DNA of 64,000 nucleotides from Promicromonospora sukumoe (lineage in GTDB: Bacteria; Actinomycetota; Actinomycetes; Actinomycetales; Cellulomonadaceae), in contig NZ_JACGWV010000003.1 in NCBI RefSeq assembly GCF_014137995.1, positions 310,001 through 374,000 on the forward strand, read 5' to 3'. The position numbers and the translations under genes were made by a program. Shown piece by piece: positions 12,203 through 26,890 of this stretch. The notes below the pieces were generated by a model, which worked only from the letters and a program-made list of their open reading frames with translations, had not been told where the DNA came from and did not search any database. The number at the start of each line of letters is the position of its first letter. The stretch's first letter is position 1.

Positions 12203-12274
12203 GAGGGTCGGACCGCCGGGGCTGCTCCGACTCATCGGTCCGTCGTAGCCTCTGACATCTCGACGACGACGTCT

Positions 12275-12301
12275 CAACGGTCCGCGCTCCCCGTCCGTTA
12301 C
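12275..12301 (+). promoter_or_regulatory. Candidate ECF-type promoter of the first fused sigma gene
   Basis: CAACGG, 15-bp spacer, CGTTAC, ending 26 bp before the ATG. AAC in the -35 and CGT in the -10 about 17 bp apart is the usual actinobacterial ECF pattern. The same arrangement recurs upstream of other members of the array. Confidence 0.5.
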
Positions 12302-12326: not shown

Positions 12327-14123
12327 ATGGTCCGGTGGGAGGACGAGCTGACGGAGCTCGTGGTCCGTCGAGGCGGCGCGCTCGTGGGGTACGCGTACTC
12401 GCTGACGCGGGACAAGGCGCAGGCCGAGGACCTGGTGCAGGACGCGCTGGTGAAGATCTACTCGCGGCTGCGCCGTCCGCCGTCGGCCGGAGGACAGACG
12501 CAGCTCGACCTGGACCGCCCGGAGGCGTCCAACGCCGAGGGGTACGTGCGGCGCGCCATCCTGACCATCTACCTGGACGGCTACCGGCGGCGGAACCACT
12601 GGGCCGGCCTCAAGCACCTCCTGGCGGACGACGCCTCCGCACCTGGGGCGGACCGGGCCGCGACGGCGCGGGTCGACGTCGGGACGGCGCTCGAGCGCCT
12701 CACGCCCCGGCAGCGCGAGGCGGTGCTGATGCGGTTCTTCGACGACCTGACCGTGCCGCAGATCGCGGCGGCGCTCGGCACGAGCCAGGGCACGGTCAAG
12801 CGGCACCTGTTCGACGCGACCGCCGCGCTGCGCCAGGCCCTGGCCGAGGTCTCCGTGCCCGCCGTGGAGACGGCGCTCGACGAGCGGCTGGACGCAGTGG
12901 CGGGTGCGGTGCGCCGGCGTCGGACGGCGAAGGTGGGTGCCGTGGCCGGTGTGTCGATGGTGCTGGCCGTCGCGCTCGCATGGGGCGCGTTCGCCGTCAG
13001 GCCGCTGCTCCGGTCCGAGCCGCTGCCGGCGGACGACAAGGTCGAGTACACGCCGGGGTACGTGCCGGCCAACTGGTCCCGCGACGCCGGGGTCTACTGC
13101 GGTATGCCGCTCGACGAGCTGCGGGCGCTGGACACCGGCGTGTTCGACGTCGAGATCACCGGCGAGCTGGCACCGGTCGCCGAGGGAACGGGCGCGCACT
13201 GGGAGCTTCCGGTCACGATCTCCGGCGCCGTGCCGGACAGCGTGACCGAGGAGAACCGTGCGTACTTCATCACCTCGCCGCTGATCGTGTGGGCGCACGA
13301 GGGCCGGGTGGTCGATCTCGGCGCCGGATGGCGCGAGGCCGACCCGGACGTCTCACGATCGTTGTCCGACGACGGCACCTGGTCCGGCGCGGCCGTCGCG
13401 GGCGGCTCGACGTCGTGCCTCGAGGACACGCTCGTACCCGAGAGCCTCGGTGAGTACCGGAACGAGCGGCCCGGGGCGGAGTACGAGCTGCTCGTGGTCC
13501 TCTCGTACGAAGGTCTCCTGCTCAGCGACCCGGTCACGGTGGACCTGGACAGCGGCGTCGCCCCGGCGCCGACCTTCGCGGCGCCGTCGGGCGACTGCAG
13601 CGGGGCCGCCTATCAGGACCGGGCCGTCACGGCTCAGGACCTCCCGGACGACGCGCGGGCCGCCGCCGCCGAGATCCTCGCGGCGGTCACCACCTGCGAC
13701 GAGGGACGGCTCGCGGAGCTGGGGACGATGCTGGACCTGGACCCGATGTCACGGCCCGACACGACCTCCGTCAACGACGTCTTCGCGCTTCCCGAGACGG
13801 ACGGCCGGATGCCGTACGCCATGGTCGCGCGGCTGCTGAGCGAGACCCTGCCCGTGAGCGACCCGGAGGGGCTGACGTGGACGTGGCCCCGGGTATCGGA
13901 GCAGGTCGACGACGACGCGGCATGGCAGGAAGCCGTCGACGCCGGTGCCGTCACCGAGGAGCAGGCCGCGGCCGACCGCGCCGAGGGCGTCTATACCGGG
14001 TGGCGGTTGCAGATCGACCAGTGGAACGACGCCCCGCTGGAAAGGACCTGGACCGCCTTCTACGAGGGTGACGACGAGTGGTGCTCGAGGCCCGGCGCCG
14101 AGTCCGATCCGGAGTGCGACTAG
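12327..14123 (+). CDS. SigE-family ECF sigma factor fused to membrane anchor and extracytoplasmic domains
   Basis: 598 residues in one frame. Sigma region 2 lies at ~15-90 (AEDLVQDALVKIYSRLRRP, AILTIYLDGYRRR) and region 4 at ~118-175 (LTPRQREAVLMRFFDDLTVPQIAAALGTSQGTVKRH). A basic stop-transfer RRRR and a single transmembrane helix at ~203-224 follow. Outside the membrane are an 'A' domain (GYVPANWSRDAGVYCGMPLDEL to about residue 410, with VWAHEGRVVDLG) and a 'C' domain that begins VFALPETDGR and contains WTWPR and AVTEEQAAADR. There is no zinc anti-sigma motif. AGAGGGGAG precedes the ATG. A membrane-tethered sigma factor would need proteolytic release or action at the membrane; which one is not known. 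Confidence 0.85.
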   Translation: MVRWEDELTELVVRRGGALVGYAYSLTRDKAQAEDLVQDALVKIYSRLRRPPSAGGQTQLDLDRPEASNAEGYVRRAILTIYLDGYRRRNHWAGLKHLLADDASAPGADRAATARVDVGTALERLTPRQREAVLMRFFDDLTVPQIAAALGTSQGTVKRHLFDATAALRQALAEVSVPAVETALDERLDAVAGAVRRRRTAKVGAVAGVSMVLAVALAWGAFAVRPLLRSEPLPADDKVEYTPGYVPANWSRDAGVYCGMPLDELRALDTGVFDVEITGELAPVAEGTGAHWELPVTISGAVPDSVTEENRAYFITSPLIVWAHEGRVVDLGAGWREADPDVSRSLSDDGTWSGAAVAGGSTSCLEDTLVPESLGEYRNERPGAEYELLVVLSYEGLLLSDPVTVDLDSGVAPAPTFAAPSGDCSGAAYQDRAVTAQDLPDDARAAAAEILAAVTTCDEGRLAELGTMLDLDPMSRPDTTSVNDVFALPETDGRMPYAMVARLLSETLPVSDPEGLTWTWPRVSEQVDDDAAWQEAVDAGAVTEEQAAADRAEGVYTGWRLQIDQWNDAPLERTWTAFYEGDDEWCSRPGAESDPECD

Positions 14124-14162
14124 CGTGCTGCGCACCAGCTCGACGGCGACCGGGCTCGCCGA

Positions 14163-14190
14163 GAACTTACGCCCCCGGCATCATCGTTCT
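14163..14190 (+). promoter_or_regulatory. Candidate ECF-type promoter of the second fused sigma gene
   Basis: GAACTT, 16-bp spacer, CGTTCT, 49 bp before the ATG. This is close to the classical GGAAC/CGTT actinobacterial ECF promoter, with one base more between AAC and CGT than the related sites in the array. Confidence 0.5.
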
Positions 14191-14238
14191 GCCCCTCCCG
14201 TCCGTCGGAGTGGATGAGAGGGAAAGGGGGCGTCACCG

Positions 14239-15978
14239 ATGGCGCAGTGGGAGAACGAGCTCGAGGAGCTCATGGCGCGGCGGGGCCGCGCGCTGGTGGG
14301 GTACGGGTACACGCTGTGCCGGGACCGCGGGCAGGCCGAGGACCTGGTGCAGGACGCGCTCGTCAAGGTGTTCTCACGCCTGCGGCGTCCGCGCGGCATG
14401 TCCGACGACGGCGGGCAGGTCGTGGACCTGGACCAGCCCCGGCTGACCAACGCGGAGGCGTACGTGCGCCGGGCGATGCTGACCATCTACCTGGACGGCT
14501 ACCGGCGCCAGACGAGCTGGACGGGCATCAAGCACCTGCTGGCCGACGAGGACCGTGCGCCCGCGGCGGAGCGCGTCGCGACGGCCCGGGTCGACGTCGG
14601 CGTGGCGCTCGCCAAGCTCTCCCCGCGGCAGCGCGAGTCGGTGGTGCTGCGGTTCTTCGAGGACATGACGGTGCCGCAGATCGCCCAGACCCTCGGCACG
14701 AGCCCGGGCACCATCAAGCGGCACCTGTCCAACGCGATGGAGGTGCTGCGCGGCTCGCTCGCGGAGATCTCCGTCCCGGAGATGGACACGGCGCTGGACG
14801 AGCGGCTCGACGCCGTGTCCGGCATGGTCCGCCGACGTCGTGCGGTGAAGGTGGGCGCGCTGAGCGGCGCCTCGCTGGTGCTGGCGGGCCTGCTGGCGAT
14901 GGCGGCGCTGTGGGGGCCGTCGCGGCTCCTGTCCGAGCCGGTGGTCCCGGCCACGCAGAACCCGGACGCGCAGGCCGGCGGCCAGGTGCCGATGCAGTGG
15001 AGCGAGCACGGCCCCAAGTACCAGTGCGGCATGGAGGTCACGGAGCTGACGTCGACGTCGGACACGGTGGAGCTGGAGCTGACGGGCGGCCTGGAGCCCG
15101 ACGACCGCGGCCTCACCGCCCCGGTCCGCATCACCCGCACCGACGCCGAGGGACCGGCGCTCGACGGCGGCTATCCCATGCTGGTGTTCGCGCAGAACGG
15201 CCAGGTCGTCGACCTGGGGCCGGGCTGGCACGAGGGCGGGTACGTGCTGCCGGACGCCGGAAGGTCCAAGGACGACGTCGCCCAGGCCACCGCGGTGACG
15301 GCGTGCGGCGACTGGACGACCGGCATGACCTCCGAGACCTTCCTGGACGAGCGGCCGGCCGGCCGGTACGACGTCTATGCGGTCATGCCGTGGAGCGACC
15401 TCGACGGGACGGGCGGGATGGCCGTCAGCGAGCCCGTCACGATGGACGTCCCGGCGGTCGACATGCCGGACCGTGAGTCGCTGAGCGTCGACATCCGCGA
15501 CGGCTACCAGCCGGCGTGGCTCGAGGACACGGACCTGGCGTGCGGAGCCAGCGCGGCGGCCGTCCCGGCCGGACCGCACGTGCCGTGGGAGCGGGCGGGC
15601 CTGTCCCTGTCGGCGGACGCCGACGACCACTACCTCGCGCCCCGCGAGCTGACGATCACGTTCACCGAGACCGCCGGCAAGGCCGTCGACACCACCCGTA
15701 CGCCGATCACGCTGGTCTGGCTCAGCGCGGGACGAGTGGTCGGGATCGGTCAGGACATCTGGTCCGAGCCCACGGAGGACCTCCGGGTGGACCCCAAGGG
15801 CGACACCTCCGTCGTCGTCCCCGTCGAGCCGGACCTGACCTGCCTCACCGATCCCGAGGCCGGCCTGCCCGACGGCAACTACGACCTGTTCGCGCTCACC
15901 GAGCTCGACCCCGGGTCGGACGGCGAACCGCAGTACCTGGGCGTCGAGGCGTTCCCCGACTACCTCGTGCAGGAGTGA
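14239..15978 (+). CDS. SigE-family ECF sigma factor fused to membrane anchor and two A-type domains
   Basis: 579 residues; AAAGGGGG lies at ribosome-site distance. The sigma part is a close paralogue of the previous gene (AEDLVQDALVKVFSRLRRP; LSPRQRESVVLRFFEDMTVPQIAQTLGTSPGTIKRHL). After VRRRRAVK comes one transmembrane helix at ~205-226. The outer part differs from its neighbour: it has two A-like domains in tandem, one with CGMEVTELTSTSD and VFAQNGQVVDLGPGWHEGGY, the second starting DGYQPAWLEDTDLACGAS with LVWLSAGRVVGIG and LPDGNYDLFALTELD, and no C domain. Each A domain has a Cys pair that could form a disulphide outside the cell. The signal sensed is unknown. Confidence 0.85.
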   Translation: MAQWENELEELMARRGRALVGYGYTLCRDRGQAEDLVQDALVKVFSRLRRPRGMSDDGGQVVDLDQPRLTNAEAYVRRAMLTIYLDGYRRQTSWTGIKHLLADEDRAPAAERVATARVDVGVALAKLSPRQRESVVLRFFEDMTVPQIAQTLGTSPGTIKRHLSNAMEVLRGSLAEISVPEMDTALDERLDAVSGMVRRRRAVKVGALSGASLVLAGLLAMAALWGPSRLLSEPVVPATQNPDAQAGGQVPMQWSEHGPKYQCGMEVTELTSTSDTVELELTGGLEPDDRGLTAPVRITRTDAEGPALDGGYPMLVFAQNGQVVDLGPGWHEGGYVLPDAGRSKDDVAQATAVTACGDWTTGMTSETFLDERPAGRYDVYAVMPWSDLDGTGGMAVSEPVTMDVPAVDMPDRESLSVDIRDGYQPAWLEDTDLACGASAAAVPAGPHVPWERAGLSLSADADDHYLAPRELTITFTETAGKAVDTTRTPITLVWLSAGRVVGIGQDIWSEPTEDLRVDPKGDTSVVVPVEPDLTCLTDPEAGLPDGNYDLFALTELDPGSDGEPQYLGVEAFPDYLVQE

Positions 15979-15979
15979 C

Positions 15980-16006
15980 CAACGATTCCTCCCCGGTGCG
16001 CGTCAT
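15980..16006 (+). promoter_or_regulatory. Candidate ECF-type promoter of the third sigma operon
   Basis: CAACGA, 15-bp spacer, CGTCAT, starting two bases after the stop of the previous gene and 48 bp before the next ATG. Same spacing as the sites before the first and fifth sigma genes. Confidence 0.5.
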
Positions 16007-16053
16007 GGGGTGTGTGGAGACGATGACAGCACACACGCACCGGGGAGGTGGCC

Positions 16054-16626
16054 ATGGCGGGATGGGAGACCGAGCTCGATGAGCTCATGAGGACGCGCGG
16101 GAGCGCGCTGGTCCGCTACGCCTACATGCTCTCCGGCGACCGCGCCCTCGCGGAGGACCTGGTCCAGGACGCACTGGTGAAGGTCTACTCGCGGTTGCGC
16201 CGCCCCGGCCGGGGCGGGGTGGGTGTGTCGGCGGGGAGCAGGGCGCACGACCTCGACTCCCCGTTCACCAACATCGAGGGCTACGTGCGGCGCGCGGTGC
16301 TGACCATCTACCTGGACGGCTACCGCAAGCGCCAGCGCTGGTCCGGCATCAAGCACCTGCTCGCCGAGGACCCGAGCACGCGCGGCGCCGACCAGGCGGC
16401 GTCGGCCCGGGTCGACGTGATGACGGCGCTCGCGAAGCTCGGTGCCCGGGAGCGCGCCTGCGTGGTGCTGCGCTACTTCGAGGACATGACGGTGCCGCAG
16501 ATCGCCGACGCCCTGGGCACCGCCCAGGGCACGGTCAAGCGGTACCTGTCCGACGCGACCAAGAACCTGCAGGAGATCCTGCGCCCCGACGACTTCCGAC
16601 CCGCCGAAGGGAGGGCCGCCCGATGA
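16054..16626 (+). CDS. SigE-family ECF sigma factor (third locus)
   Basis: 190-residue stand-alone sigma factor. Region 2 AEDLVQDALVKVYSRLRRP and AVLTIYLDGYRKRQ, region 4 LGARERACVVLRYFEDMTVPQIADALGTAQGTVKRYL. The gene overlaps the membrane-protein gene by 4 bp (ATGA), so the pair is translated together; in the two loci to the left the equivalent parts are fused. The ATG at 16054 was chosen over the in-frame GTG two codons upstream because GGGGAGG sits at the right distance. It is predicted to direct RNA polymerase to its own promoter and perhaps those of its paralogues; target genes are otherwise unknown. Confidence 0.9.
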   Translation: MAGWETELDELMRTRGSALVRYAYMLSGDRALAEDLVQDALVKVYSRLRRPGRGGVGVSAGSRAHDLDSPFTNIEGYVRRAVLTIYLDGYRKRQRWSGIKHLLAEDPSTRGADQAASARVDVMTALAKLGARERACVVLRYFEDMTVPQIADALGTAQGTVKRYLSDATKNLQEILRPDDFRPAEGRAAR

Positions 16627-18347
16627 GCCACGACGACCTGAACGACCGATCCGACCAGAACGACTTCCTGAGCGGCGCGCTCCATGGTGCTGCCGACGCG
16701 ATGCCCGGTGGGGAGGTGAACGACTTGCACGTCTCGTTCGGAGTGGTGCGCGACCGCGTGCGGCGGCGTCGTGCCGTGAAGGTCGGCAGCCTCGCCGGCG
16801 CGAGCCTGGCGGTGGCGGGCGTGCTCGCCTTCGGCGTCACGCAGTCGCCCGTGTGGAACAGCGAACCGGTGCTGCCCGGGTCGCCGACCGAGAACGTCGC
16901 TCCGAACCGGTCCGCGGACCCGTCGCCGTCGGGACCGCCCGCGACGAGCGTGATCCAGGACGGGTACGTGCCGTCGTGGATCGACGGCCTCGGCGTCGGT
17001 CTGTCGTGCGGCATGCCCGTCGACGACCTGGGGTCGACGACGGACACCTGGTCCGCGACGTCGATCGGCGACATCTACTCCGTGACCTCGGAGCTGGGCG
17101 GAGAGCCCTCGACGAGCCTGGGCATGGCAGCGTCCGTCGAGGGGACCGAGGGGTCGGTCGACGTCCCGCCGGTGCTGGTCTGGAGCCAGGACGGCGTGGT
17201 GGTGGACCTGGGGCCGAACGTCTTCGACGGATCCACGCTGCGCGAGCCGCTGGTGGGTTCCGCCGGCAACGCGACCGAGGCGCAGGACAGTGCGCTCACG
17301 TCGTGCGCGCCCACCGAGACCGAGACCAGGGACACCTTCCAGACCTCGCTGCCCGAGGGCGACTACGAGGTGCGGGTGGTCGCCTTCCCGCAGCTCGACT
17401 CGGGTGACTGGGCGACGGCGGTGAGCGAGCCGGTCGCCGTCCGCCTCGACGCCGACGGCGCGCACAGCCCCACCGGCACGCGCGGTGGCGACGCGACCAT
17501 CGAGCCGCCGGAGCGCGCCGAGGGCGAGCTCACCCGGATGGTGCTGGACCGCAGCACGAGCTGGGTGTCCGCGCAGGAGACGCAGTTCGGGTACGTGACG
17601 ACCGGAACGCCCGTGATCACCGCGGAGTGCGAGAGCACCGACCCGGCGGACGTGGTGTCGATCGAGGTGGTGCAGCCGTCCACCGACGAGTCGTTCGCGA
17701 CCTTCGACGTGCCCTGCGACGGTGAGCGGTTCGTGTCGGACGAGGTGGTCGGCGGCGGCAGCGAGGAGGTCGTGGACCTCCGGCTGGCGAGCGTGCCCGA
17801 CGGCGTCTCCCGGTTCTGGGCGACGCTCGCCCCGAACGCCGACGGCAGCAGCGGCGGCGGGGGCGGGGCCGACGCCGCCGGCGCCTGCTCTGCGGACGGC
17901 CTCGACCTGCCCCACGACCCGCCGAGCTCGCCGAGTGCGGCCGCCGGGGCCACGGCGCAGGCCGTCCTGGACGCAGCGCTGGCCTGCGACCAGGACCGGC
18001 TCGTCGAGCTGGCGACTCAGTACCCCACGGAGCTGCTGGTCCCCGCCCAGCCTGCCGAGGAGGTCTTCGCCCTGCCCGAGGACGACGCGCTGCACTACCT
18101 GACGGTGGCCGGGCTCCTCGCCGGTACGGTGGGGGCCGACCGCGGGGACGGGACGGTCGTCTGGCCGCGGGTCGCGACCGAGGAGTTCCGCGACTCGGAC
18201 GAGGCCTGGGACGAGGCGGTGGAGGCCGGCCTGCTCACGCAGGGTGAGGCCGACGCCCAGCGTGCCGACGAGACGTTCGGTTACACGGGGATGGGGATCG
18301 CGATCGACGACGCCGGCAACTGGCGGTACTACTCCGCCACCCCGTGA
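16623..18347 (+). CDS. Single-span membrane protein with A-B-C extracytoplasmic domains, sigma partner
   Basis: 574 residues, probable regulator or sensor of the overlapping sigma gene. A ~50-residue cytoplasmic N-terminus, RRRRAVK, then a transmembrane helix at ~54-73. Outside: domain A (GYVPSWIDGLGVGLSCGMPV, VWSQDGVVVDLGPNVFDG, LPEGDYEVRVVAFP), domain B (LTRMVLDRSTSW, ITAECESTDPADVVSIEV, PCDGERF, DLRLASVPDGVSRFW), and domain C starting VFALPEDDALHYL with VVWPRVATEEFRDSDEAWDEA. No HxxxCxxC zinc anti-sigma motif is present in the short cytoplasmic part. Domain A and C are also found in the fused sigma proteins, so this gene is the split version of the same design. Confidence 0.8.
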   Translation: MSHDDLNDRSDQNDFLSGALHGAADAMPGGEVNDLHVSFGVVRDRVRRRRAVKVGSLAGASLAVAGVLAFGVTQSPVWNSEPVLPGSPTENVAPNRSADPSPSGPPATSVIQDGYVPSWIDGLGVGLSCGMPVDDLGSTTDTWSATSIGDIYSVTSELGGEPSTSLGMAASVEGTEGSVDVPPVLVWSQDGVVVDLGPNVFDGSTLREPLVGSAGNATEAQDSALTSCAPTETETRDTFQTSLPEGDYEVRVVAFPQLDSGDWATAVSEPVAVRLDADGAHSPTGTRGGDATIEPPERAEGELTRMVLDRSTSWVSAQETQFGYVTTGTPVITAECESTDPADVVSIEVVQPSTDESFATFDVPCDGERFVSDEVVGGGSEEVVDLRLASVPDGVSRFWATLAPNADGSSGGGGGADAAGACSADGLDLPHDPPSSPSAAAGATAQAVLDAALACDQDRLVELATQYPTELLVPAQPAEEVFALPEDDALHYLTVAGLLAGTVGADRGDGTVVWPRVATEEFRDSDEAWDEAVEAGLLTQGEADAQRADETFGYTGMGIAIDDAGNWRYYSATP

Positions 18348-18382
18348 CGGCACCGGGTGGTTTCTTCACCCCATCGGATCCC

Positions 18383-18416
18383 GTGCCCCGCTCGTGTTTC
18401 AGACCGAGCGGGGCAC
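18383..18416 (+). terminator. 12-bp hairpin after the third sigma operon
   Basis: GTGCCCCGCTCG (18383-18394), 10-nt loop, exact complement CGAGCGGGGCAC. It is placed 36 bp after the stop, as expected for a terminator, although no T tract follows. Confidence 0.6.
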
Positions 18417-18444
18417 AGGGGCCCGCAGGGTGAGGAGCAGGCAC

Positions 18445-18504
18445 ATGACCAGCAAGCGATCCGTCGCGGGGACGAGGGTGCGTGATGACCACACGGTGGG
18501 ATGA
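18445..18504 (+). other. Possible 19-codon leader ORF overlapping the next sigma start
   Basis: ATG preceded by GAGGAG at seven bases, then 19 codons ending at TGA 20 bp inside the sigma gene in another frame. The ribosome site is better than that of the sigma gene itself. It could couple translation or be chance. Confidence 0.3.
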
Positions 18505-19036
18505 CGAGCTCACGGAGCTCGTGACCGCCCGGGGACGCGCACTCGTGGGATACGGGTACGCGCTGACGGGCGACGTACGCAAGGCGGAGGACCTCGTGCA
18601 GGACGCCCTGGTCCGCGTCTTCCGGCGGTTCCGCCGCCCGGAGGCCGCCGGTACCGAGGGGCGTACCGAGTTCCCGCTGAACGACGCCGGGAACCACGCG
18701 GGCATCGAGGCGTACGTGCGCCGGACGATGCTCAACCTCTACCTTGACGAGACCCGCCGCTTCGCGCTCTGGCGCAAGGCCCAGCCCAAGGTCGCGGTCG
18801 AGGACCGGGTCAAGGCACCGGCGTCGGACATCACCGCCCGCGCCGACGTCACGGTCGCGCTGCGCGGCCTGAGCCCGCGCCAGCGCGCCTGCGTGGTGCT
18901 CCGTTACTACGACGACATGACCGTGCCCCAGATCGCCGCCACGCTCGGCATCGCGCAGGGCACGATCAAGCGACACCTGGCCGACGGCATCCACGCCCTG
19001 CGTGGCGTGCTCGTGCCGGAAGGAGAGCTCCGATGA
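18485..19036 (+). CDS. SigE-family ECF sigma factor (fourth locus)
   Basis: 183 residues: TRWDDELTELVTARGRALVGYG at the start, region 2 AEDLVQDALVRVFRRFRRP, TMLNLYLDETRR, region 4 LSPRQRACVVLRYYDDMTVPQIAATLGIAQGTIKRHL. The gene overlaps the membrane-protein gene by 4 bp. The start could be the ATG at 18485 or the GTG just before it; GAGGG lies six bases before the ATG. Unlike the other four sigma genes it has no AAC-N17/18-CGT signature upstream, and a short ORF with a good ribosome site overlaps its start. It may rely on transcription from the previous operon or on a different promoter. Confidence 0.88.
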   Translation: MTTRWDDELTELVTARGRALVGYGYALTGDVRKAEDLVQDALVRVFRRFRRPEAAGTEGRTEFPLNDAGNHAGIEAYVRRTMLNLYLDETRRFALWRKAQPKVAVEDRVKAPASDITARADVTVALRGLSPRQRACVVLRYYDDMTVPQIAATLGIAQGTIKRHLADGIHALRGVLVPEGELR

Positions 19037-20073
19037 GCGGGCACGACGACCTCGGGTTCGACGACCTCGGCCCCGGCGACGGCCTCGGTCCCGGCCGCGA
19101 CGTCCTGAAGCAGACCATCGGCGCCCTGGTCGACGGCGCTACGTCCCCGGGCGTACCGAGCGGGCCGGAGGAGAACCTGGGCCGCCTGCGGCGCAGGGTG
19201 CGCACGTGGCGCATCGCCAAGGCCGGTGCGGTCGGCGTGGGTACTGCCGTCGTGATCGGCACGCTCGCCTTCAGCGCGGCGCAGGCCTCGACCTGGACCC
19301 GGTCCGAGCCGCTGCCCGGCCGGCCCACCGTGCACGCCACCGACTCGGGCCCGATGCCCTCGGAGGTCCCGACGACCCGGGTGTCACAGGGCACCACGGC
19401 CAGCCCGTCGCCCTCGCCCAGCCCGTCGGACGTCCCCGTCGGGGAGCCGACGCCGGACCCGAGCGCGTCGTCCACGGGCGAGGCGACGGGATCGGGCACG
19501 GCGGCGGGCGCGTGGCCGCCGTTCGAGCCCTTCGACGAGGGGTACGCGGCATGGGACCTCGGCCGGCCGATCGCGTGCGGCATGGCGATCGAGGACCTGC
19601 CGGCCGACCCGGTCCGGTTCACGGTCCAGGCGAACGACGCGCCCGCCGACCGGCAGGTCTCGGGCTTCACCATCACCGAGGTGGCGGGGGAGTCGCACGA
19701 GCTCGCCAGCGGCCGGCCCCCCGAGTACCTCCTGTTCCAGGACGGGCGCATGGTCAGCTCCAGTGACGGCCCGTCGGACGGCGGTTTCTGGGCGCAGGAC
19801 GAGCAGACCGTGGTCGACGGACCCGACGACACCTACGAGCCGGTCACCCCCGGTCAGACGTGGGAGCTCGGGGACGCCTACGCCGTCGGGCTGGAGGACT
19901 TCTCGACGTGCGGTGAGCAGGTGTACGACGACCAGTTCTTCACGACCGACTACCTCACCCCCCTTCCGGCGGGCGAGTACGAGATCGTGTTCGTCGCCCC
20001 GTACAGCCTGCGCGGCGAACCGGACTCCTTCCAGTTCGCCTACAGCGACCCCTACCCGGTCACCTACCCCTGA
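19033..20073 (+). CDS. Single-span membrane protein with Ser/Pro linker and one A-type domain, sigma partner
   Basis: 346 residues. An Asp/Gly-rich cytoplasmic N-terminus of ~60 residues, basic RRRVRTWRIAK, a transmembrane helix at ~64-84, then a Ser/Pro/Thr-rich linker (TASPSPSPSPSDVPVGEPTP) like those that span cell wall, and a divergent A domain from ~175 (AAWDLGRPIACGMAIEDL, LLFQDGRMVSSSDGPSDGGF, CGEQVYDDQFFTTDYLTPLP, AGEYEIVFVAPY). It has neither B nor C domain, so it is the shortest sensor of the set. It is translationally coupled to the sigma gene before it and ends two bases before a 44-bp palindrome shared with the convergent gene. Confidence 0.8.
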   Translation: MSGHDDLGFDDLGPGDGLGPGRDVLKQTIGALVDGATSPGVPSGPEENLGRLRRRVRTWRIAKAGAVGVGTAVVIGTLAFSAAQASTWTRSEPLPGRPTVHATDSGPMPSEVPTTRVSQGTTASPSPSPSPSDVPVGEPTPDPSASSTGEATGSGTAAGAWPPFEPFDEGYAAWDLGRPIACGMAIEDLPADPVRFTVQANDAPADRQVSGFTITEVAGESHELASGRPPEYLLFQDGRMVSSSDGPSDGGFWAQDEQTVVDGPDDTYEPVTPGQTWELGDAYAVGLEDFSTCGEQVYDDQFFTTDYLTPLPAGEYEIVFVAPYSLRGEPDSFQFAYSDPYPVTYP

Positions 20074-20074
20074 G

Positions 20075-20118
20075 GTGTCAGACGCTCAGGTCACGGGAGT
20101 GACCTGAGCGTCTGACAC
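20075..20118. repeat. 44-bp palindromic element, copy 5 (between convergent genes)
   Basis: Perfect 18-bp arms GTGTCAGACGCTCAGGTC / GACCTGAGCGTCTGACAC, loop ACGGGAGT. It begins one base after the stop of the sensor gene and contains the stop codon of the opposing mpaB-like gene. A bidirectional terminator role is likely. Confidence 0.92.
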
Positions 20119-21531
20119 GTCGTGGAGCGGGTGGTAGCTCGCGAGGATGGCGGCGCTCCGCCGTCGGCCCCACTGCTCGAGGCGCTCCCGGCCCCGCCGG
20201 GAGCGCCCGAGCACGCGGTACCTCCACGTGTTCAGCGGCAGCAGGTACGCGTGGGCCCACGGCGGGCGCAGCGGCAGACCGAGGTCGCGCATGCTGCGCA
20301 CCCCGAGGAACGCCGTGAGCATCGACAGCAGCCGTTCCCGCTCGAACCGGGCCCGCCACGGCTGCCCCCACGCCGGTCCGGGATACGTCCGCTCGGCCTG
20401 GGCGGCGACCACCGCCCGGGCCAGCCGCGGACCGGCCTCCGAGACCCCGGCCTGCGCGAGCAGCACGTGGTGGTTGAGACGGTGCCGCGCCCACTCGTCG
20501 TCGACCAGGAAGTCGGGGTGCACACCCATCAGGTGCCCCACCCACTTCCACAGGTGCATCAGGGCCCGGCTGTCCGACGGCGGGACAGGCACCCCCAGCG
20601 CGCGGCACCCCAGGATCAGCGTGCCGTCGAACAGGCCGAGCGTCGCCGCCTGGTCCGCCTGGTTGATCGGCAGGCCCCAGCGTGCGGTGTCCCAGCGGGT
20701 CGTGTCCCGGCTCTGGCTGCCCGGCGGTTCGGTGAACGACGCCGCGACCAGCGCGTGCATCACCCGGACGTGGACGGTGGCCCGCCACGCGGGGCCGTAG
20801 GGGCGCAGCGCGCCGGGCTCCGTCAGCCCCACGGTCCACTCCTGCGTCTCGGCGAGCCGGCGCAGGGTGCCGCTGGTCAGGGCGCCGGTGGCCACGAGCA
20901 GGTCCGTCGGCCCGCCGAACCGGTACCCGCCGACGAGCGAGAGCTGGAGCAGCACGTCGGCGGCGTTCTGCCCGAGCCGCCGCTGCACCGCGGCACCCTG
21001 CTCGACGAGGTCCCAGTCGACCCACCCGGGCACGGCGGTGACCTCCTTGAGGAACTCCCGTAGCACGGGCGGCCACCCCTGGCCGCCCCCGAGCTCGGCA
21101 CCCTCCTGGTGCCCGGAAATGAGCTCGGTCGGTTGCATCGAGACCGGTCGGTCGATGGACCGGTCTCGACGCAAGGGACCGAGCTCATTTTCGCCGTCGG
21201 GCAAGGTGCCGAACTCGCTGCCGCCAGGGCGAGGCGCCGGTGCAGGGTCCGGGGCCGCGAGCGCCGTCCGCAGCATCGCGTGCGTGACCCGGTCCGGGTC
21301 GCCGGACGGGAGACGCATGGCGGCGGCGAGCGCCGCGGCGGCGTCGTCCTGCTCGGAGAAGGCGCGGCCGATCCGGTCCAGGAGCGCCTCGTCCACCCCG
21401 CGGACCCGGCCGAGCACGCGCAGCGGGCGGCCGATCCGCGTCCCGCGTGCCTCGGCGCTGCGGAACCGCCGCGGGTAGGTCGCGGCGGGGACGCCGACGT
21501 CGTCCACAGGGTTGTCCACAGGTTTGCCCAT
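20086..21531 (-). CDS. Oxygenase MpaB family protein (DUF2236)
   Basis: 481 residues resembling the MpaB/latex-clearing-protein-like heme oxygenase family. Helical segments with WDLVEQGAAVQRRLGQNAAD, LSLVGGYRFGGPTDLLVATGAL, TVHVRVMHALV and DTARWGLPINQADQAATLGLF are typical, the last two carrying the conserved Arg-x-x-His and Gln/Asn-rich signature. The substrate is unknown. Two repeats shape the protein: an internal 74-bp palindrome encodes residues near 115-140, and the 3' end runs into the 44-bp palindrome, giving the C-terminal VSDAQVTPVT and the stop. The gene interrupts the sigma/sensor array on the other strand. ATG at 21531 is chosen; upstream frames extend but lack support. Confidence 0.78.
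   Translation of the reverse strand: MGKPVDNPVDDVGVPAATYPRRFRSAEARGTRIGRPLRVLGRVRGVDEALLDRIGRAFSEQDDAAAALAAAMRLPSGDPDRVTHAMLRTALAAPDPAPAPRPGGSEFGTLPDGENELGPLRRDRSIDRPVSMQPTELISGHQEGAELGGGQGWPPVLREFLKEVTAVPGWVDWDLVEQGAAVQRRLGQNAADVLLQLSLVGGYRFGGPTDLLVATGALTSGTLRRLAETQEWTVGLTEPGALRPYGPAWRATVHVRVMHALVAASFTEPPGSQSRDTTRWDTARWGLPINQADQAATLGLFDGTLILGCRALGVPVPPSDSRALMHLWKWVGHLMGVHPDFLVDDEWARHRLNHHVLLAQAGVSEAGPRLARAVVAAQAERTYPGPAWGQPWRARFERERLLSMLTAFLGVRSMRDLGLPLRPPWAHAYLLPLNTWRYRVLGRSRRGRERLEQWGRRRSAAILASYHPLHDVSDAQVTPVT
21117..21190. repeat. 74-bp imperfect palindrome inside the mpaB-like gene
   Basis: 33-bp arms (21117-21149, beginning AAATGAGCTCGGTC, and 21158-21190) with three mismatches and an 8-nt loop GGTCGATG. 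It is translated on the minus strand as a hydrophilic segment containing ENELGPLRRDRSIDRPVSMQ. Unrelated in sequence to the 44-bp family. Confidence 0.88.
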
Positions 21532-21578
21532 GACCTCATCCTCACCCGGCGAACTTCCGCGGACCAGGAATCCGACCC

Positions 21579-21605
21579 CAACCCTTTCGCGGTCCCCGGC
21601 GTCAC
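21579..21605 (+). promoter_or_regulatory. Candidate ECF-type promoter of the orphan sensor gene
   Basis: CAACCC, 15-bp spacer, CGTCAC, 43 bp before the ATG. Same layout as upstream of three sigma genes, although this gene has no sigma factor of its own. Confidence 0.45.
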
Positions 21606-21647
21606 AAGGGGTGAAAAGCAAAACAACCCACCACGGGGAGACGGACC

Positions 21648-22775
21648 ATGAGCCACGAAGGAAACCGCACGGACCACGACCTCGCGAACCGGGCGACGGA
21701 CCGGTCGCGGCGGGCGCGGCGCGGACGGACGGCGCGGCTGGCCGGCGTCGGCGGCGGCGCGGTCGTCGCGGCCGGAGCGCTCGTCCTGGGGGCCACGCAG
21801 CTCGCGACGCCGGGCCTGGCCTCGCCGCTGCCCACCTACGAGCCGGTGGCGATGGACGTCACGCAGCAGGACGTCGCGCTGCGCGACGTCCCGCAGCCGG
21901 ACCTGCTGGCGGGGACCCCGCTGCGGTGCGGCGCGAACGTCGCCGACCTGAGCTTCTCCGACGACGTCGTGCTGGCGGCCACCGGGGACCTGACCACGGA
22001 CTCGGTGTACTACGAGGAGGAGTGGTCGAGCTACGACTCGTTGGCGCTGCGGGCGGCCGACGCCGCCGGGGACGACGTCTCGGAGAACGACCTCAACTCG
22101 CCCACGTTCGTCTGGGTGGCGCAGGACGGGACGGTCGTCGACCTGGGCGGCTGGGAGGAGTACCCGATGTACCTGGCGCACGAGGACGGCGTCCCGACGG
22201 CGCAGGAGGACCGCACGTCGAGCTGCGCCGAGGGCGCGGAGCAGTGGCTCGCCGACGGCGAGTACACGGTCTACCCGATGACCGTCGAGTACTCGACGGA
22301 CACCCTGGTGGCGGGCGAGCCGCGGCCGGCGACCGTCGTGGACGGCGAGCCGCAGTGGGCCAAGGGCGGCCAGGAGGCACCGGTGCCGTTCGAGCTGCCG
22401 GGCGACCCCGACCAGACGCTGCTGCCGGACCGCGGGTTCGGCAGCGTGGTGGTCGACCGCACCGGGACGTGGGAGCGCCACGACACCTACCGCGCCGTCT
22501 GGCCGGAGCAGGACCTCACCGAGGGTGAGGGCTACGTGGTCCAGGCGCGCTGCACCTCGGCCGACCCGGACGACAGCATCACCTACGAGCTGTCCGGCGC
22601 GTGGGGCGACGTCACCGGCGAGATCGCGTGCGACGGGCACGACCGTACCGACGGCACCTGGGGCTACCAGGCCCCGGACGTCCCGGGCGAGCCGGTAGGC
22701 ATCAAGCTGACCGACGTGCCGGACGGCGTCGCGCTGGCGTACGCGCGTCTGGTCCCCGCCTCCGTGGCGAGCTGA
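21648..22775 (+). CDS. Orphan single-span membrane protein related to the sigma-linked sensors (A-B)
   Basis: 375 residues with GGGGAG at the ribosome-site position. Short basic cytoplasmic N-terminus (RSRRARRGRTAR), transmembrane helix at ~31-52, then a diverged A domain (TPLRCGANVADLSFSDDVVL, FVWVAQDGTVVDLGGWEEYP, CAEGAEQWLADGEYTVYPM) and a B domain (GSVVVDRTGTWERHD, VQARCTSADPDDSITYEL, IACDGHDRTDGTWGYQ, VGIKLTDVPDGVALAYARL). It has no adjacent sigma gene in front; the next sigma gene starts 276 bp downstream. The reading frame is intact and the architecture complete apart from domain C, so it looks like a working orphan and not a fragment. It may share a sigma factor with a neighbouring locus. 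Confidence 0.75.
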   Translation: MSHEGNRTDHDLANRATDRSRRARRGRTARLAGVGGGAVVAAGALVLGATQLATPGLASPLPTYEPVAMDVTQQDVALRDVPQPDLLAGTPLRCGANVADLSFSDDVVLAATGDLTTDSVYYEEEWSSYDSLALRAADAAGDDVSENDLNSPTFVWVAQDGTVVDLGGWEEYPMYLAHEDGVPTAQEDRTSSCAEGAEQWLADGEYTVYPMTVEYSTDTLVAGEPRPATVVDGEPQWAKGGQEAPVPFELPGDPDQTLLPDRGFGSVVVDRTGTWERHDTYRAVWPEQDLTEGEGYVVQARCTSADPDDSITYELSGAWGDVTGEIACDGHDRTDGTWGYQAPDVPGEPVGIKLTDVPDGVALAYARLVPASVAS

Positions 22776-22832
22776 CCCGACCGGACCACACCGCTGGTCG
22801 ACCCGGCCCCCGCCGGTCGACCCCACCCCGCA

Positions 22833-22966
22833 GGTCGAGCCTGTCGAGACCCCTGGTCCCGGCAGGCTCGACCCGTGTCCGGGCTCGGCAGGGTCTCGAC
22901 AAGCTCGACCACCGGGCCCTGCCCGCGCTGGTGGAGCTGCCCCCGCTGGTCGAGCTTGTCGAGACC
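22833..22966. repeat. Cluster of three 19-bp inverted-repeat units
   Basis: GGTCGAGCCTGTCGAGACC at 22833-22851, its reverse-oriented variant GGTCTCGACAAGCTCGACC at 22892-22910, and GGTCGAGCTTGTCGAGACC at 22948-22966, plus shorter fragments between them. The opposed units could fold into larger hairpins. The cluster fills most of the gap between the orphan sensor gene and the fifth sigma gene. Confidence 0.88.
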
Positions 22967-22994
22967 CGTACGAGAATCGGTTCCCGAACCCGCA

Positions 22995-23021
22995 CAACCT
23001 CCTGGCGGCCTGGTTCGTCGA
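22995..23021 (+). promoter_or_regulatory. Candidate ECF-type promoter of the fifth sigma operon
   Basis: CAACCT, 15-bp spacer, CGTCGA, 31 bp before the ATG. Same AAC-N17-CGT arrangement as the first and third sigma loci. Confidence 0.5.
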
Positions 23022-23051
23022 CACGGTCAGGACGGCAGGAAGGAGCCGGCA

Positions 23052-23666
23052 ATGGGCTGGCACGAAGACCTGGAGAGGCTCGCCACCGAACGTGGCGGCG
23101 CGCTCGTCGGGTACGCGTACACGCTGTGCGGCGACGTGCGGCAGGCCGAGGACCTGGTGCAGGAGGCGCTGGTCAGGTACTGCTCGCGCCTGGTCCGGCC
23201 GGGCGGGTCGGGGCCGGGCGGGCGGCGCGGCCGCGCGACGTCGGGCATGCGCACGGTGCCCCTCGACGGGGCCGGCACAGGGAACGGGACCGGGGACCTG
23301 GACAGCGGCCGGAGCGCCCGCCACCCCGAGGCGTACGTGCGCCGCACGGTGCTGAACCTGTACCTGGACGGCTGGCGGCGCAGCAAGAAGTGGGCCGACA
23401 TCGCCCCGCGGGTTGCCGTGGAGGACGTCCGGTTCCCCGACTCGGGCGTCACGGCCCGGGCCGACGTCGTGCACGCGCTGACCCGGCTCCCGCCGAGGCA
23501 GCGCGCGTGCGTGGTGCTGCGGTACTTCGAGGACCAGACGATCGCGCAGGTCGCCGACTCGATGGGGACCGCGCCGGGCACGGTCAAGCGCTATCTGCAC
23601 GACGCCCTGCGCACGCTGCGCGACGTGCTCGAACCAGTGGACGCGACGACGGAAGGGAAGCGGTGA
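23052..23666 (+). CDS. SigE-family ECF sigma factor (fifth locus)
   Basis: 204 residues, GGAAGGAG before the ATG. Region 2 AEDLVQEALVRYCSRLVRP and TVLNLYLDGWRRSKK, region 4 LPPRQRACVVLRYFEDQTIAQVADSMGTAPGTVKRYL. A longer Gly/Arg/Ser-rich loop than in the paralogues (about residues 53-90) separates the region 2 helices. The stop overlaps the start of the membrane-protein gene by one base, so the pair forms an operon. It is one of three stand-alone sigma factors in the array. Confidence 0.9.
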   Translation: MGWHEDLERLATERGGALVGYAYTLCGDVRQAEDLVQEALVRYCSRLVRPGGSGPGGRRGRATSGMRTVPLDGAGTGNGTGDLDSGRSARHPEAYVRRTVLNLYLDGWRRSKKWADIAPRVAVEDVRFPDSGVTARADVVHALTRLPPRQRACVVLRYFEDQTIAQVADSMGTAPGTVKRYLHDALRTLRDVLEPVDATTEGKR

Positions 23667-25366
23667 TGAACCAGCACGACGGCAGGGACCAGAACCACGG
23701 CTGGGTGGACCCCGAGGGCACGGACCTCCTGGCGCAGACCCTCGGCGCGATGGCGGGCGGCGTCGACCCGGCGTCGCCCACCGGCCCGGCCGCGGCGACG
23801 TCGGCCATGGGTCGGCGGGTGCGGAGGCGCCGGGGCGCGAAGCTGGGCGGGCTCGGCGGGGGCGCGCTGGCGCTCGCGGCGGCGGTGGCGCTCGGCGCCG
23901 GCCAGCTCGCGCCGCCGGACCAGGCCGAGGTGTTGCCCGGTTCCCCGGCACCCGCGCCGGCGTTCCAGGTCCAGGACGGCTACCAGCCGCCCTGGCTGGA
24001 GTGGAGCGACCTGACGTGCGGCATGCCGGTGGACGACCTGACGTCCACGGCGCAGGGCTGGTCCGTGGCCCCGGCCGGTGACATCTACGCCCGGACGACG
24101 GATCTCGGCGGCGGACCGTCGACGTCCTGGGGCATGGCGGCCACGGTCGAGGAGGGCGACGGGTCCCTGGACGTGGCCCCGGTGCTCGTGTGGAGCCAGG
24201 ACGGTGTGGTGGTCGACCTGGGGCCGGACGTTTTCGACGCGCCGGGCGCGCAGTCCGGGCCGCTGCTCGGCGGCAGCGACGGGGACGTCGCCGCCGCCGG
24301 AGGACCGGCATCGACCTGTGTGCCGGCCGAGCCCGGGTCGCGGGACACCTTCGGGACACCCCTGCCCGACGGCGACTACGAGGTGCGGGCGGTGGCCTTC
24401 CCGGAGGCCGGTCCGGGCGAGCGGGCGACGGCGGTGAGCGAGCCGGTGCCGGTCCGCCTCGACGCCGACGGCGCGCACGGCCCGGGCGCAGCACGGGACG
24501 ACGAGCCGCTCTTCGGGTTCCCGGTACCGGTCCAGGGCCATGTCTCGCTGTTGACGCTGGACCGCACCACGGACCTGGTCACCGCCGAGATGACGCAGCT
24601 GGAGCCCCTGTCGGACGTGCCGATGGCGGTGTTCGCCCAGTGCGTGGGCGGGGACCCGGAGGTCGGGCCGCAGATCGAGCTGGTGCTGCCCTCCACAGGG
24701 GAGGTGGTCGGGGGCATGGGCGTCTCCTGCGACGGGGAGGAGGCAGGGACCGAGGTCGGGGTCCTGCCCGGCGCCGAGGGCGGAGAGGTCGTCGACATCC
24801 GCCTGAAGGACGTGCCCGACGGAGTCTCCCGGCTCTGGGTGTCCCTCGACTCGGCGGGGCCACCGCTGAGCCGGAGCGGCGGTCCCGAGTGCTCGGCGAC
24901 CGGGTTCGAGCCGAAGTTCGACCTGGACGGCTTCCCGACGGGGGACGTCGCGACGGCCGCCGCGAACATCGTGCTGGCTGCCATGGACTGCGACTCCGAG
25001 GCGCTGATCGCGTTGGCGGAGGACTCGGGGACGGAGCTCATGCCCGGCAGCGGGACCCCGGAGCAGGTCTTCGCCCTGCCCGAGCCCGGCACCGACCACT
25101 ACCTGATGATCGCCGCCCTGTTGTCCGACACCCGCGGCGAGATCGTCGGCGACGTGGCAGGCGACGTCACGGGCGACGAGACGGTCGTCTGGCCCCGGGT
25201 CGCGACCGAGGAGTTCCGCGACTCGGAGGAGGCCTGGGACGAGGTGGTGGCCGCGGGCCTGCTCACGGCCGAGGAGGCCGAGGCCCAGCGGGCGCACGGC
25301 TACCAGGGGCCACGGATCGCCATCGGCACGGACATGACCTGGCAGTCCTACACCGCGGGCGAGTAG
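23666..25366 (+). CDS. Single-span membrane protein with A-B-C extracytoplasmic domains, sigma partner
   Basis: 566 residues and the closest relative of the third-locus sensor. Cytoplasmic part of ~55 residues, RRRRGAK, transmembrane helix at ~59-80, then domain A (GYQPPWLEWSDLTCGMPVDDL, VWSQDGVVVDLGPDVFD, LPDGDYEVRAVAFP), domain B (LTLDRTTDLVTAEMTQL, CVGGDPEVGPQIELVLPST, SCDGEEAG, DIRLKDVPDGVSRLW), domain C (VFALPEPGTDHYLMIAALL, VVWPRVATEEFRDSEEAWDE). The near-identity of WPRVATEEFRDS in both proteins shows recent duplication or strong constraint on domain C. No enzymatic motif or zinc anti-sigma site was recognised. A 44-bp palindrome follows 10 bp after the stop. Confidence 0.8.
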   Translation: MNQHDGRDQNHGWVDPEGTDLLAQTLGAMAGGVDPASPTGPAAATSAMGRRVRRRRGAKLGGLGGGALALAAAVALGAGQLAPPDQAEVLPGSPAPAPAFQVQDGYQPPWLEWSDLTCGMPVDDLTSTAQGWSVAPAGDIYARTTDLGGGPSTSWGMAATVEEGDGSLDVAPVLVWSQDGVVVDLGPDVFDAPGAQSGPLLGGSDGDVAAAGGPASTCVPAEPGSRDTFGTPLPDGDYEVRAVAFPEAGPGERATAVSEPVPVRLDADGAHGPGAARDDEPLFGFPVPVQGHVSLLTLDRTTDLVTAEMTQLEPLSDVPMAVFAQCVGGDPEVGPQIELVLPSTGEVVGGMGVSCDGEEAGTEVGVLPGAEGGEVVDIRLKDVPDGVSRLWVSLDSAGPPLSRSGGPECSATGFEPKFDLDGFPTGDVATAAANIVLAAMDCDSEALIALAEDSGTELMPGSGTPEQVFALPEPGTDHYLMIAALLSDTRGEIVGDVAGDVTGDETVVWPRVATEEFRDSEEAWDEVVAAGLLTAEEAEAQRAHGYQGPRIAIGTDMTWQSYTAGE

Positions 25367-25459: not shown

Positions 25460-26890
25460 ATGACGGACCAGAACCTCACCACCGCCCAGTCCGGAGCAGC
25501 ACAGTCCGGATCAGCCGAGTCCGGATCAGCCGAGATCGCACCCGTCCAGCCCGCCGTCGTCCCGCAGGAGGCTCGCGCCCACGCCGAGGACCTGGGCGCG
25601 TTCGTCGCGGCGTCGCCGTCGTCGTACCACGCGGCCGCGGAGGTGGCCCGGCGCGCGCAGGCGGCCGGCTTCACGCTCCTCGCCGAGGACGCCGCCTGGG
25701 GCGTGACCCGCGGTGGGCGCTACGTCGTCGTCCGCGACGGCTCGGTCATCGCCTTCACCGTGCCCGACGCCGCCGGCCCCACCACCCCCTTCACCATCGT
25801 GGGCGCCCACACCGACTCCACCGGCTTCAAGCTCAAGCCGAAGCCGACCACGCGCGGCGCGGGCGGCTGGTGGCAGGTCGGGGTCGAGGTGTACGGCGGG
25901 CCGCTGCTCAACTCCTGGCTCGACCGCGAGCTGGAGCTGGCCGGCCGCATCGTCACGCACGACGGCACCGAGCACCTGGTCCGCACCGGGCCGATGCTGC
26001 GCATCCCGCAGCTCGCCATCCACCTGGACCGCGGCGTGAACGACAACGGCCTCGCCCTGGACAAGCAGCGGCACACCCAGCCCGTCTGGGGCCTCGGCGA
26101 CGCGCAGAGCGCCGACGTGCTGGCGGCGCTCGCCGCGGACGCCGGCGTGGACCCCGCCGAGATCGGCGGGTACGACGTGGTGCTCGCGGAGACGCAGCCG
26201 GCCCGGGCGTTCGGCGCCGGCCAGGCCCTCTTCGCGTCCGCGCGACTCGACAACCTGCTCTCCACGCACGCGGGCCTGACGGCGCTGCTCGGCCGCGCCG
26301 CCACGGGGGTTGAGCCTGTCGAAACCGGGGTCTCGACAAGCTCGACCAGCGAGAGCTCGACCGGCATCGAGATGTTCGCCGCCTTCGACCACGAGGAGAT
26401 CGGCAGCGCCTCCCGCTCCGGCGCCGCGGGCCCGTTCCTGGAGGAGGTGCTGGTCCGCATCTCGACGGCCCTGGGCGCGACGGCGGAGGAGCGGTCCCGC
26501 GCGTTCGCGGCGTCGCTGCACGTGTCGTCCGACGTCGGGCACGCGGTGCACCCGAACTACCCGGAGCGGCACGACCCGGCCAACCACCCGGTCGCGGGCG
26601 GCGGCCCGATCCTGAAGATCAACGCGAACCAGCGCTACGCCACGGACGCCCACGGGGCGGCCGCCTGGAACGCGGCGTGCCGGGACGCGGGGGTGCCCAC
26701 GCAGGAGTTCGTCTCCAGCAACGTGGTCCCGTGCGGATCGACGATCGGACCGATCTCGGCGACGCGTCTGGGCATTCGCACTGTCGACGTCGGAGTGCCA
26801 ATTTTGTCGATGCACTCGGCCCGTGAGCTCACCGCGGTGGTCGATCCCTGGTACCTCTCGCGCGCGATGAGCGCCGTCCTGCGGGGGTGA
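25460..26890 (+). CDS. M18 family aminopeptidase
   Basis: 476-residue zinc aminopeptidase releasing N-terminal, typically acidic, residues from peptides in the cytoplasm. Metal and active-site segments are clear: IVGAHTDSTGFKLKPKP, HLDRGVNDNGLALDKQ, FDHEEIGSASRSGAAGPFLEE, HPNYPERHDPANHP, SNVVPCGSTIGPISATRLG and SMHSARE. Two insertions are foreign to the family: three copies of a Ser-Gly-Ala repeat near residues 10-25, and VEPVETGVSTSSTSESSTG near 284-302, encoded by a head-to-head pair of the 19-bp repeat in a surface position just before the FDHEE motif. The gene is probably leaderless, with a GATAAT box six bases before ATG. Confidence 0.93.
   Translation: MTDQNLTTAQSGAAQSGSAESGSAEIAPVQPAVVPQEARAHAEDLGAFVAASPSSYHAAAEVARRAQAAGFTLLAEDAAWGVTRGGRYVVVRDGSVIAFTVPDAAGPTTPFTIVGAHTDSTGFKLKPKPTTRGAGGWWQVGVEVYGGPLLNSWLDRELELAGRIVTHDGTEHLVRTGPMLRIPQLAIHLDRGVNDNGLALDKQRHTQPVWGLGDAQSADVLAALAADAGVDPAEIGGYDVVLAETQPARAFGAGQALFASARLDNLLSTHAGLTALLGRAATGVEPVETGVSTSSTSESSTGIEMFAAFDHEEIGSASRSGAAGPFLEEVLVRISTALGATAEERSRAFAASLHVSSDVGHAVHPNYPERHDPANHPVAGGGPILKINANQRYATDAHGAAAWNAACRDAGVPTQEFVSSNVVPCGSTIGPISATRLGIRTVDVGVPILSMHSARELTAVVDPWYLSRAMSAVLRG
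26308..26347. repeat. Pair of opposed 19-bp repeat units inside the aminopeptidase gene
   Basis: GGTTGAGCCTGTCGAAACC (26308-26326) and GGTCTCGACAAGCTCGACC (26329-26347) form a near-perfect inverted pair of the same family as the cluster at 22833. They are read in frame as part of a hydrophilic insert. Confidence 0.85.

Follow-up and report, generated by a model that had tools for sequence, protein, structure and literature searches.

An array of fused and split sigma factor/receptor units in Promicromonospora sukumoe

Sigma factors steer RNA polymerase to particular genes. Extracytoplasmic function (ECF) sigma factors governed by a membrane regulator are a known kind of system, and the array described here, in the soil actinobacterium Promicromonospora sukumoe, belongs to it. 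What is new are its unnamed outer domains, its short zinc-free tail and the repeated fusion of sigma factor and receptor at the same cut. The array lies at 12327-25366 of the stretch analysed, referred to as the window (64,000 nucleotides; contig NZ_JACGWV010000003.1, positions 310,001 to 374,000, forward strand), and comprises five ECF sigma modules and six single-span receptors with outer domains A, B and C. We propose that it probably forms a set of lineage-specific, self-amplifying sigma/receptor switches. The receptor tails, with two helix-like stretches (H1 and the juxtamembrane H2), would be minimal zinc-free membrane anti-sigma factors, and fusion of sigma factor and receptor would replace H1.

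ECF52 (SCO4117), ECF48 and ECF53 also combine an actinobacterial sigma factor with a single membrane region and an outer part in the same polypeptide (PMC5826349, PMC8999054). However, the chain of ECF52 includes a zinc finger, a proline-rich segment and a carbohydrate-binding module (PMC5826349, PMC8999054), whereas the fusions in the window have no zinc finger between sigma factor and span, a linker of 25-28 residues and A and C domains. Similarly, sigma factor and membrane anti-sigma factor are combined in one protein in IutY (ECF243) of Pseudomonas putida, but IutY stems from another phylum, carries another outer part and is freed by Prc and RseP in iron signalling (PMC8999054). The split receptors recall CnrY, a class II anti-sigma factor of a similar size class whose short cytosolic part places two helices on sigma-4 and sigma-2 (PMC7406223); this likeness is one of plan, the putative helices in the window being read from the sequence pattern. 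RsbN, the class III anti-sigma factor of BldN, is likewise short, zinc-free and actinobacterial, but the BldN/RsbN structure has three helices as opposed to the two stretches of the window tails (PMC7406223).

The SigE family (TIGR02983) with its downstream membrane proteins is a further relative. Among the ten loci of the P. sukumoe genome above the cut-off of this family, seven show the gene order, 4-bp overlap and short basic tail of the split pairs described here, and three are fusions. In contrast, the window sigma factors stay below the curated cut-off and form a long branch of their own, their receptors carry A/B/C outer domains and two of the genes are fused.

Layout of the array

The 6.5-Mb genome carries the array on the plus strand as two fused sigma-receptor genes, three split pairs of sigma gene and receptor, and one lone receptor, that is, a receptor without a sigma gene directly before it (TM, transmembrane span):

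12327-14123, plus strand: fused gene, sigma-TM-A-C (sigma at about residues 1-176, linker with H2, span at residues 199-229, A 13032-13574, C 13590-14120)
14239-15978, plus strand: fused gene, sigma-TM-A-A (first A 14950-15456, second A 15475-15975)
16054-16626, plus strand: split sigma gene, first pair
16623-18347, plus strand: receptor TM-A-B-C, first pair (tail residues 1-53 with H1 and H2, A 16944-17450, B 17451-17837, C 17874-18344)
18485-19036, plus strand: split sigma gene, second pair
19033-20073, plus strand: receptor TM-linker-A, second pair (A 19510-20070)
21648-22775, plus strand: lone receptor TM-A-B, tail without H1 and without H2 (A 21855-22355, B 22356-22772)
23052-23666, plus strand: split sigma gene, third pair
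23663-25366, plus strand: receptor TM-A-B-C, third pair (start GTG 23663 or ATG 23666; A 23960-24466, B 24467-24847, C 24890-25363)

Each of the six receptors has one strongly hydrophobic span, and the three split receptors each start 4 bp inside their own sigma gene. The array proteins share 88-91% identity with their relatives in P. sukumoe records, compared to 96% for a sigma factor unrelated to the array. A gene with an MPAB/Lcp oxygenase domain lies inside the array on the opposite strand (20086-21621, minus). The array is flanked on the left by a gene for a GyrI-like domain protein (11705-12277, minus), whose listed start falls at the first promoter of the array, and on the right by an M18 aminopeptidase gene (25460-26890, plus).

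The sigma parts are of ECF type. All five exceed the Pfam cut-off for sigma-70 region 4 and four of the five that for region 2 (P0002 reaches 22.3 bits against a cut-off of 24), and a fused protein matched ECF sigma factors by fold (E 5e-6, probability 1.00). The original prediction, made from the sequence of the window, had listed these five sigma and six membrane modules with their architectures, all of which are present, and had placed the sigma factors in the SigE family. TIGR02983 is indeed the best NCBIfam model for all five, but with 106.3-127.2 bits none reaches its curated cut-off of 141.55. The prediction that the array encodes no zinc anti-sigma domain held, since neither zf-HC2 nor another anti-sigma model of Pfam matched the array proteins at E <= 1. 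No named family had been recognised for A, B and C either, and none was matched in Pfam or NCBIfam. The only family match of any receptor at E < 0.001 was a weak one between the tail and span of the lone receptor and the SCO2400 family (20.5 bits, cut-off 55). The receptors had furthermore been regarded as one family; pairwise BLAST between them gave E values down to 2e-144, and their homology therefore goes beyond chance. Compared with the first A domain, the seven A domains are 21-58% identical; by fold, A weakly matched Ig/FN3-like domains and B, also weakly, sandwich-like (carbohydrate-module-like) ones. Two cysteines are invariant in 34/34 A domains and two in 15/15 C domains, and these pairs would fit a location outside the cell.

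Receptor tails and promoters

In the switch that we propose, a split unit would pair an ECF sigma factor with a translationally coupled single-span receptor. The short cytoplasmic tail of the receptor would serve as an anti-sigma factor of minimal size, without zinc and with two helices, of which, as in CnrY, one (H1) would bind sigma-4 and the other (H2) sigma-2. The outer A/B/C domains may sense something outside the cell, and the signal would disable the tail, most simply via regulated proteolysis. Once free, the sigma factor would use CWWCSN16CGT promoters, the sites of which are seen in the sequence, to transcribe its own operon and other targets. In the fused proteins the sigma factor would be tied in cis, the covalent link doing the job of H1 while H2 is retained, so that activation would require cleavage between sigma factor and membrane, or action in place. 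A site-2 protease of family M50 is encoded in the genome, which says little because 14/14 control genomes have M50 too. The lone TM-A-B receptor lacks a tail for sigma binding yet has a sigma-type promoter, and is therefore read as a product of the regulon rather than a regulator. Architecture, overlap, promoter sites, gain and loss of tail stretches, and phylogeny are what can be read from the sequence alone.

We read 40 stretches beside the window (12 of Promicromonospora, 28 of other genera; handles beginning with L), and annotated the clusters with domain profiles built from the window's own domains. Exactly 4 bp of overlap with the sigma gene was found for 65/67 split receptors, their start codons having been picked nearest to the 4-bp overlap point. 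The cytoplasmic tails of these 65 receptors are 43-66 residues long (median 57) and contain both helix-like stretches: H1 is amphipathic (like D-x-L-x-x-x-L-x-x-A), and the juxtamembrane H2 ends in arginines. By a loose criterion H1 was present in 65/66 split tails and in 0/25 fused linkers; this count covers 66 of the 67 split rows, omitting L034 6879 (gap -101), and the H2 score is missing for one of the 66. H2 is hydrophobic at positions -1, -5 and -8 in 61, 62 and 62 of 65 split tails and in 24, 25 and 25 of 25 fused linkers. Between sigma-4 and the span the fused proteins have only 25-28 residues, which leaves no room for H1.

Such a short connection of an intact sigma-2 and sigma-4 to the span, together with the lack of an anti-sigma domain in between, would also suit proteins that act in place, as membrane-tethered transcription initiators whose outer domains change conformation or oligomerisation and which are not released by proteolysis. 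CadC/ToxR-type one-component regulators are the model for membrane-tethered initiation. We consider this unlikely for the fused proteins. A tethered sigma factor would still have to join RNA polymerase at the membrane, and the characterised fused ECF sigma factor, IutY, is described as working through cleavage (PMC8999054).

The lone receptors bear on the function of the tails. Those of A-B type (window, L020, L021) have an H2 score of 0/4 and no H1, those of C type (L018, L024) an H2 score of 1/4, with a weak H1 score from two of three possible starts of L024. As scored, these five readable lone receptors of the genus carry neither H1 nor H2. Two lone A-A receptors of L028 have tails too short for scoring. 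Altogether 17 receptors have no preceding sigma gene. No judgement was made on L014 6335 (masked), L015 3238, L015 5986 and L028 8547 (no span read); eight of the others are among the lone and half-sigma receptors described here, and L033 6788, 8607 and 8744 were left out of the tail assignments.

Arginine-rich juxtamembrane stretches are common topogenic signals. H2 might thus be a mere topogenic basic stretch and the tails no anti-sigma factors, with the receptors co-varying with the sigma factors for other reasons, e.g. as positive co-regulators or sigma chaperones. Arginine blocks precede the span in lone receptors too (RRARRGR in the window, RRRR in L021), and the low-confidence models give binding no structural support. 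However, split and fused proteins have retained the hydrophobic face that precedes the arginines, lone receptors have lost it, and H1 goes together with a sigma factor encoded by a gene of its own. We therefore give this explanation little credence.

The promoters concern the self-amplifying part of the proposed switch. The core pattern was C[AT][AT]C[GC], 16 bases and CGT (CWWCSN16CGT); AAC and CGT are named as hallmarks of ECF promoters in PMC8103513. In the array the cores are:

12275-12298, plus strand: CWWCSN16CGT match before the sigma-TM-A-C gene
14182-14205, plus strand: CWWCSN16CGT match before the sigma-TM-A-A gene
15980-16003, plus strand: CWWCSN16CGT match, first split pair
18372-18395, plus strand: CWWCSN16CGT match, second split pair; shares bases with a strong hairpin (18376-18425)
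21579-21602, plus strand: CWWCSN16CGT match, lone receptor (46 bp upstream of the start)
22995-23018, plus strand: CWWCSN16CGT match, third split pair

Hence, 5/5 window sigma genes are preceded by a core with an AAC-type -35 and a CGT-type -10 element, as is the lone receptor; CATC replaces CAAC in two of the five sigma promoter sites. In the 13 Promicromonospora clusters a core with the fixed spacer of 16 lies upstream of 60/61 sigma genes, including 24/25 fused genes. Other spacers between 10 and 21 gave 0-6 matches, and shuffled sequences a mean of about 0.5 with a maximum of 4 at any spacer and 2 at spacer 16, although the shuffles preserve base composition only and orthologous upstream regions are not independent. 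In related genera 29/30 sigma genes are preceded by a core, which in a few cases lies well away from the start. Among the counterparts of the lone receptor, L021 has the site, that of L020 deviates at the fifth base and the region in L014 is masked.

A stricter promoter pattern occurs at six places in the genome and at one in the control, and two of the six lie in this array. Three strict-pattern sites are found 34-81 bases before possible starts and one apparently lies inside coding sequence. The sites at C1:1024866, C1:2233589 and C1:3273955 (L149-L151) are candidate targets, with possible genes for a gamma-glutamyltransferase-like (by our own reading), a small membrane and an exported protein behind them. 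The hairpin at 18376-18425 (-37.9 kcal/mol, z -5.7) overlaps the -10 region of the second split pair. Inverted repeats resembling it are visible at counterpart loci, and it is perhaps the terminator of the upstream gene.

Origin of the fusions

All 25 fused full-sigma genes are located in the 13 Promicromonospora clusters including the window, with one to four in each, and a sequencing error behind the fusion was rejected on this ground. Their sigma factors form one clade (support 100/99). Its nearest relatives (94/84) are L030 5227 and L041 6140, split-pair sigma factors with TM-A-A receptors from two other genera, and the tails of both receptors contain H1 and H2. We therefore assume one fusion of a split pair before the species of the genus parted, followed by copying and A/C exchange. 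The fused A-C and A-A types do not form two clades, so the outer domains were exchanged after the fusion.

Three further SigE-family sigma-TM fusions were identified in the same genome, at C1 near 1805405, 1884650 and 2632072 (L058, L057 and L056); with these and one fused sigma factor in the class sample (L132), we rejected the idea that fusion is peculiar to the array. Their outer part differs from A/B/C and is repeat-like (propeller-type by our reading), and relatives occur throughout Promicromonospora and once in Myceligenerans among the 120 matches listed. The three group together (100/95) as sister to the split L055 of the same genome (99/94), with a bootstrap that is not fully settled. 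The linker has kept the H2 of the receptor of L055, and H1 is again gone. In the tree they stand apart from the window sigma factors, by which a single origin of all fusions was rejected. Fusion appears to have occurred at least twice, separately and at the same cut. This is the strongest clue that a covalent bond may replace the helix that otherwise docks on sigma-4.

Mostly neutral duplication, with the fused and lone genes as decaying, functionless copies, is very improbable: the number of fused genes (one to four in a cluster), a fragment in at least one case (L015 5986-6813) and the intermixing of A-C and A-A types in the tree would agree with it, but at least one fused gene is found in 13/13 clusters, the promoter cores are retained and the frames are long and intact.

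Distribution and generality

The array is present in 13/13 Promicromonospora clusters read, window included, whereas related genera have simpler split pairs. Outside Promicromonospora each receptor has a gene of its own, which in 30 cases follows directly on a sigma gene, with the exception of receptors that carry half a sigma factor. In the P. sukumoe genome A domains were found in the array only. The original prediction had suggested a count of such loci across actinobacteria. A domains occurred in 38/150 genomes and 10/25 genera of the family and in 18/297 genomes of the order, and C domains in 2/296 genomes of the class (own genome counted in order and class). These numbers are lower bounds, since only part of the first-look candidates was scored (23, 11 or 12 per genome). 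All 13 same-genus genomes among the family matches listed have an A-domain match. Named C-domain matches came from Promicromonospora, Myceligenerans, Isoptericola, Krasilnikoviella, Antribacter and one Micrococcales bin (20 loci). Two open frames from a different family of the order, 237 and 200 residues long, also match C (L096 and L098, G211). The A, B and C domains would make up a new family of receptors in Promicromonospora and related genera. No description of it was found in the titles and abstracts listed, although the published ECF classification may still describe the group; publications on Promicromonospora and sigma factors were, by title and abstract, apparently unrelated.

The underlying plan is more widespread. 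SigE-type ECF sigma factors matched in 40/40 genomes sampled from the class, in 27/40 above the cut-off. We compiled 49 class loci, 29 from the class search and 20 picked by hand, many of these for a long open frame. A downstream membrane protein was present at 40 of them, 30 of these with the 4-bp overlap; of the others one is fused, two have other extensions, at three the frame that follows lacks a span and for three none was found. The original prediction is borne out in part. The cluster annotation and the sigma tree support one receptor family in which duplication recurred, domains came and went and genes were fused, but a split sigma factor with a short-tailed receptor is not peculiar to the array, and the predicted surface signals and control of the sigma factors by membrane attachment or partner binding stay at the level of a proposal.

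The half-sigma receptors occur in two related genera. Their N-terminal stretch, ahead of span and A domains, aligns to sigma-2 (profile positions 1-78 to 1-81) without sigma-4:

L035:6835-8742, minus strand: half-sigma receptor, sigma-2 20 bits
L033:4055-6094, plus strand: half-sigma receptor, sigma-2 13 bits
L051:5236-7047, minus strand: half-sigma receptor, sigma-2 33 bits, A domain 25 bits
L035:5359-6834, minus strand: half-sigma receptor, similar start by eye

They look like fused receptors with the sigma factor shrunk to half, and one idea is that the half-sigma is a decoy which might compete for polymerase or tail. At L033:6191-6822, the front and back of a sigma gene are open in different frames, reflecting a broken gene or an assembly error.

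Several observations weigh against our proposal. The receptors of L033, L035 and L051 break the tail rule, as a sigma-2 half precedes a tail in which stretches resembling H1 or H2 occur, and the three half-sigma receptors checked gave no promoter core upstream. Position -12 of H2 is hydrophobic in 25/25 fused proteins but only in 25/65 split ones. The predicted local distance difference test (pLDDT) values of tails and linkers are under 50 in the models. The lack of H1 in fused proteins is in part a statement of linker length, and H2 may merely orient the span. Regarding the promoters, the sole sigma gene of the 13 clusters without a match is a fused one (L017 4310), and a core precedes only 5/10 other SigE loci of the genome and 13/45 of the class. 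Moreover, the whole window contains 45 core sites with 21 expected by chance. A single site is therefore weak proof, and it is the exact placement before each sigma gene that carries weight.

More generally, SigE-type sigma factors may be governed by a two-helix zinc-free tail with interchangeable outer domains, and a natural deletion series (at least two independent fusions that retain H2 but have lost H1, lone receptors that drop both helices, and half-sigmas) would assign H1 to sigma-4 and H2 to sigma-2; we put this forward tentatively, holding it somewhat less probable than its opposite. If the short tail is an anti-sigma factor, a large group of bacterial surface receptors would become readable from sequence, with outer domains swapped like sensor heads. 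The natural fusions would offer a direct test of the pairing of tail helices and sigma domains, and could serve as a model for single-chain sensors whose promoters are known.

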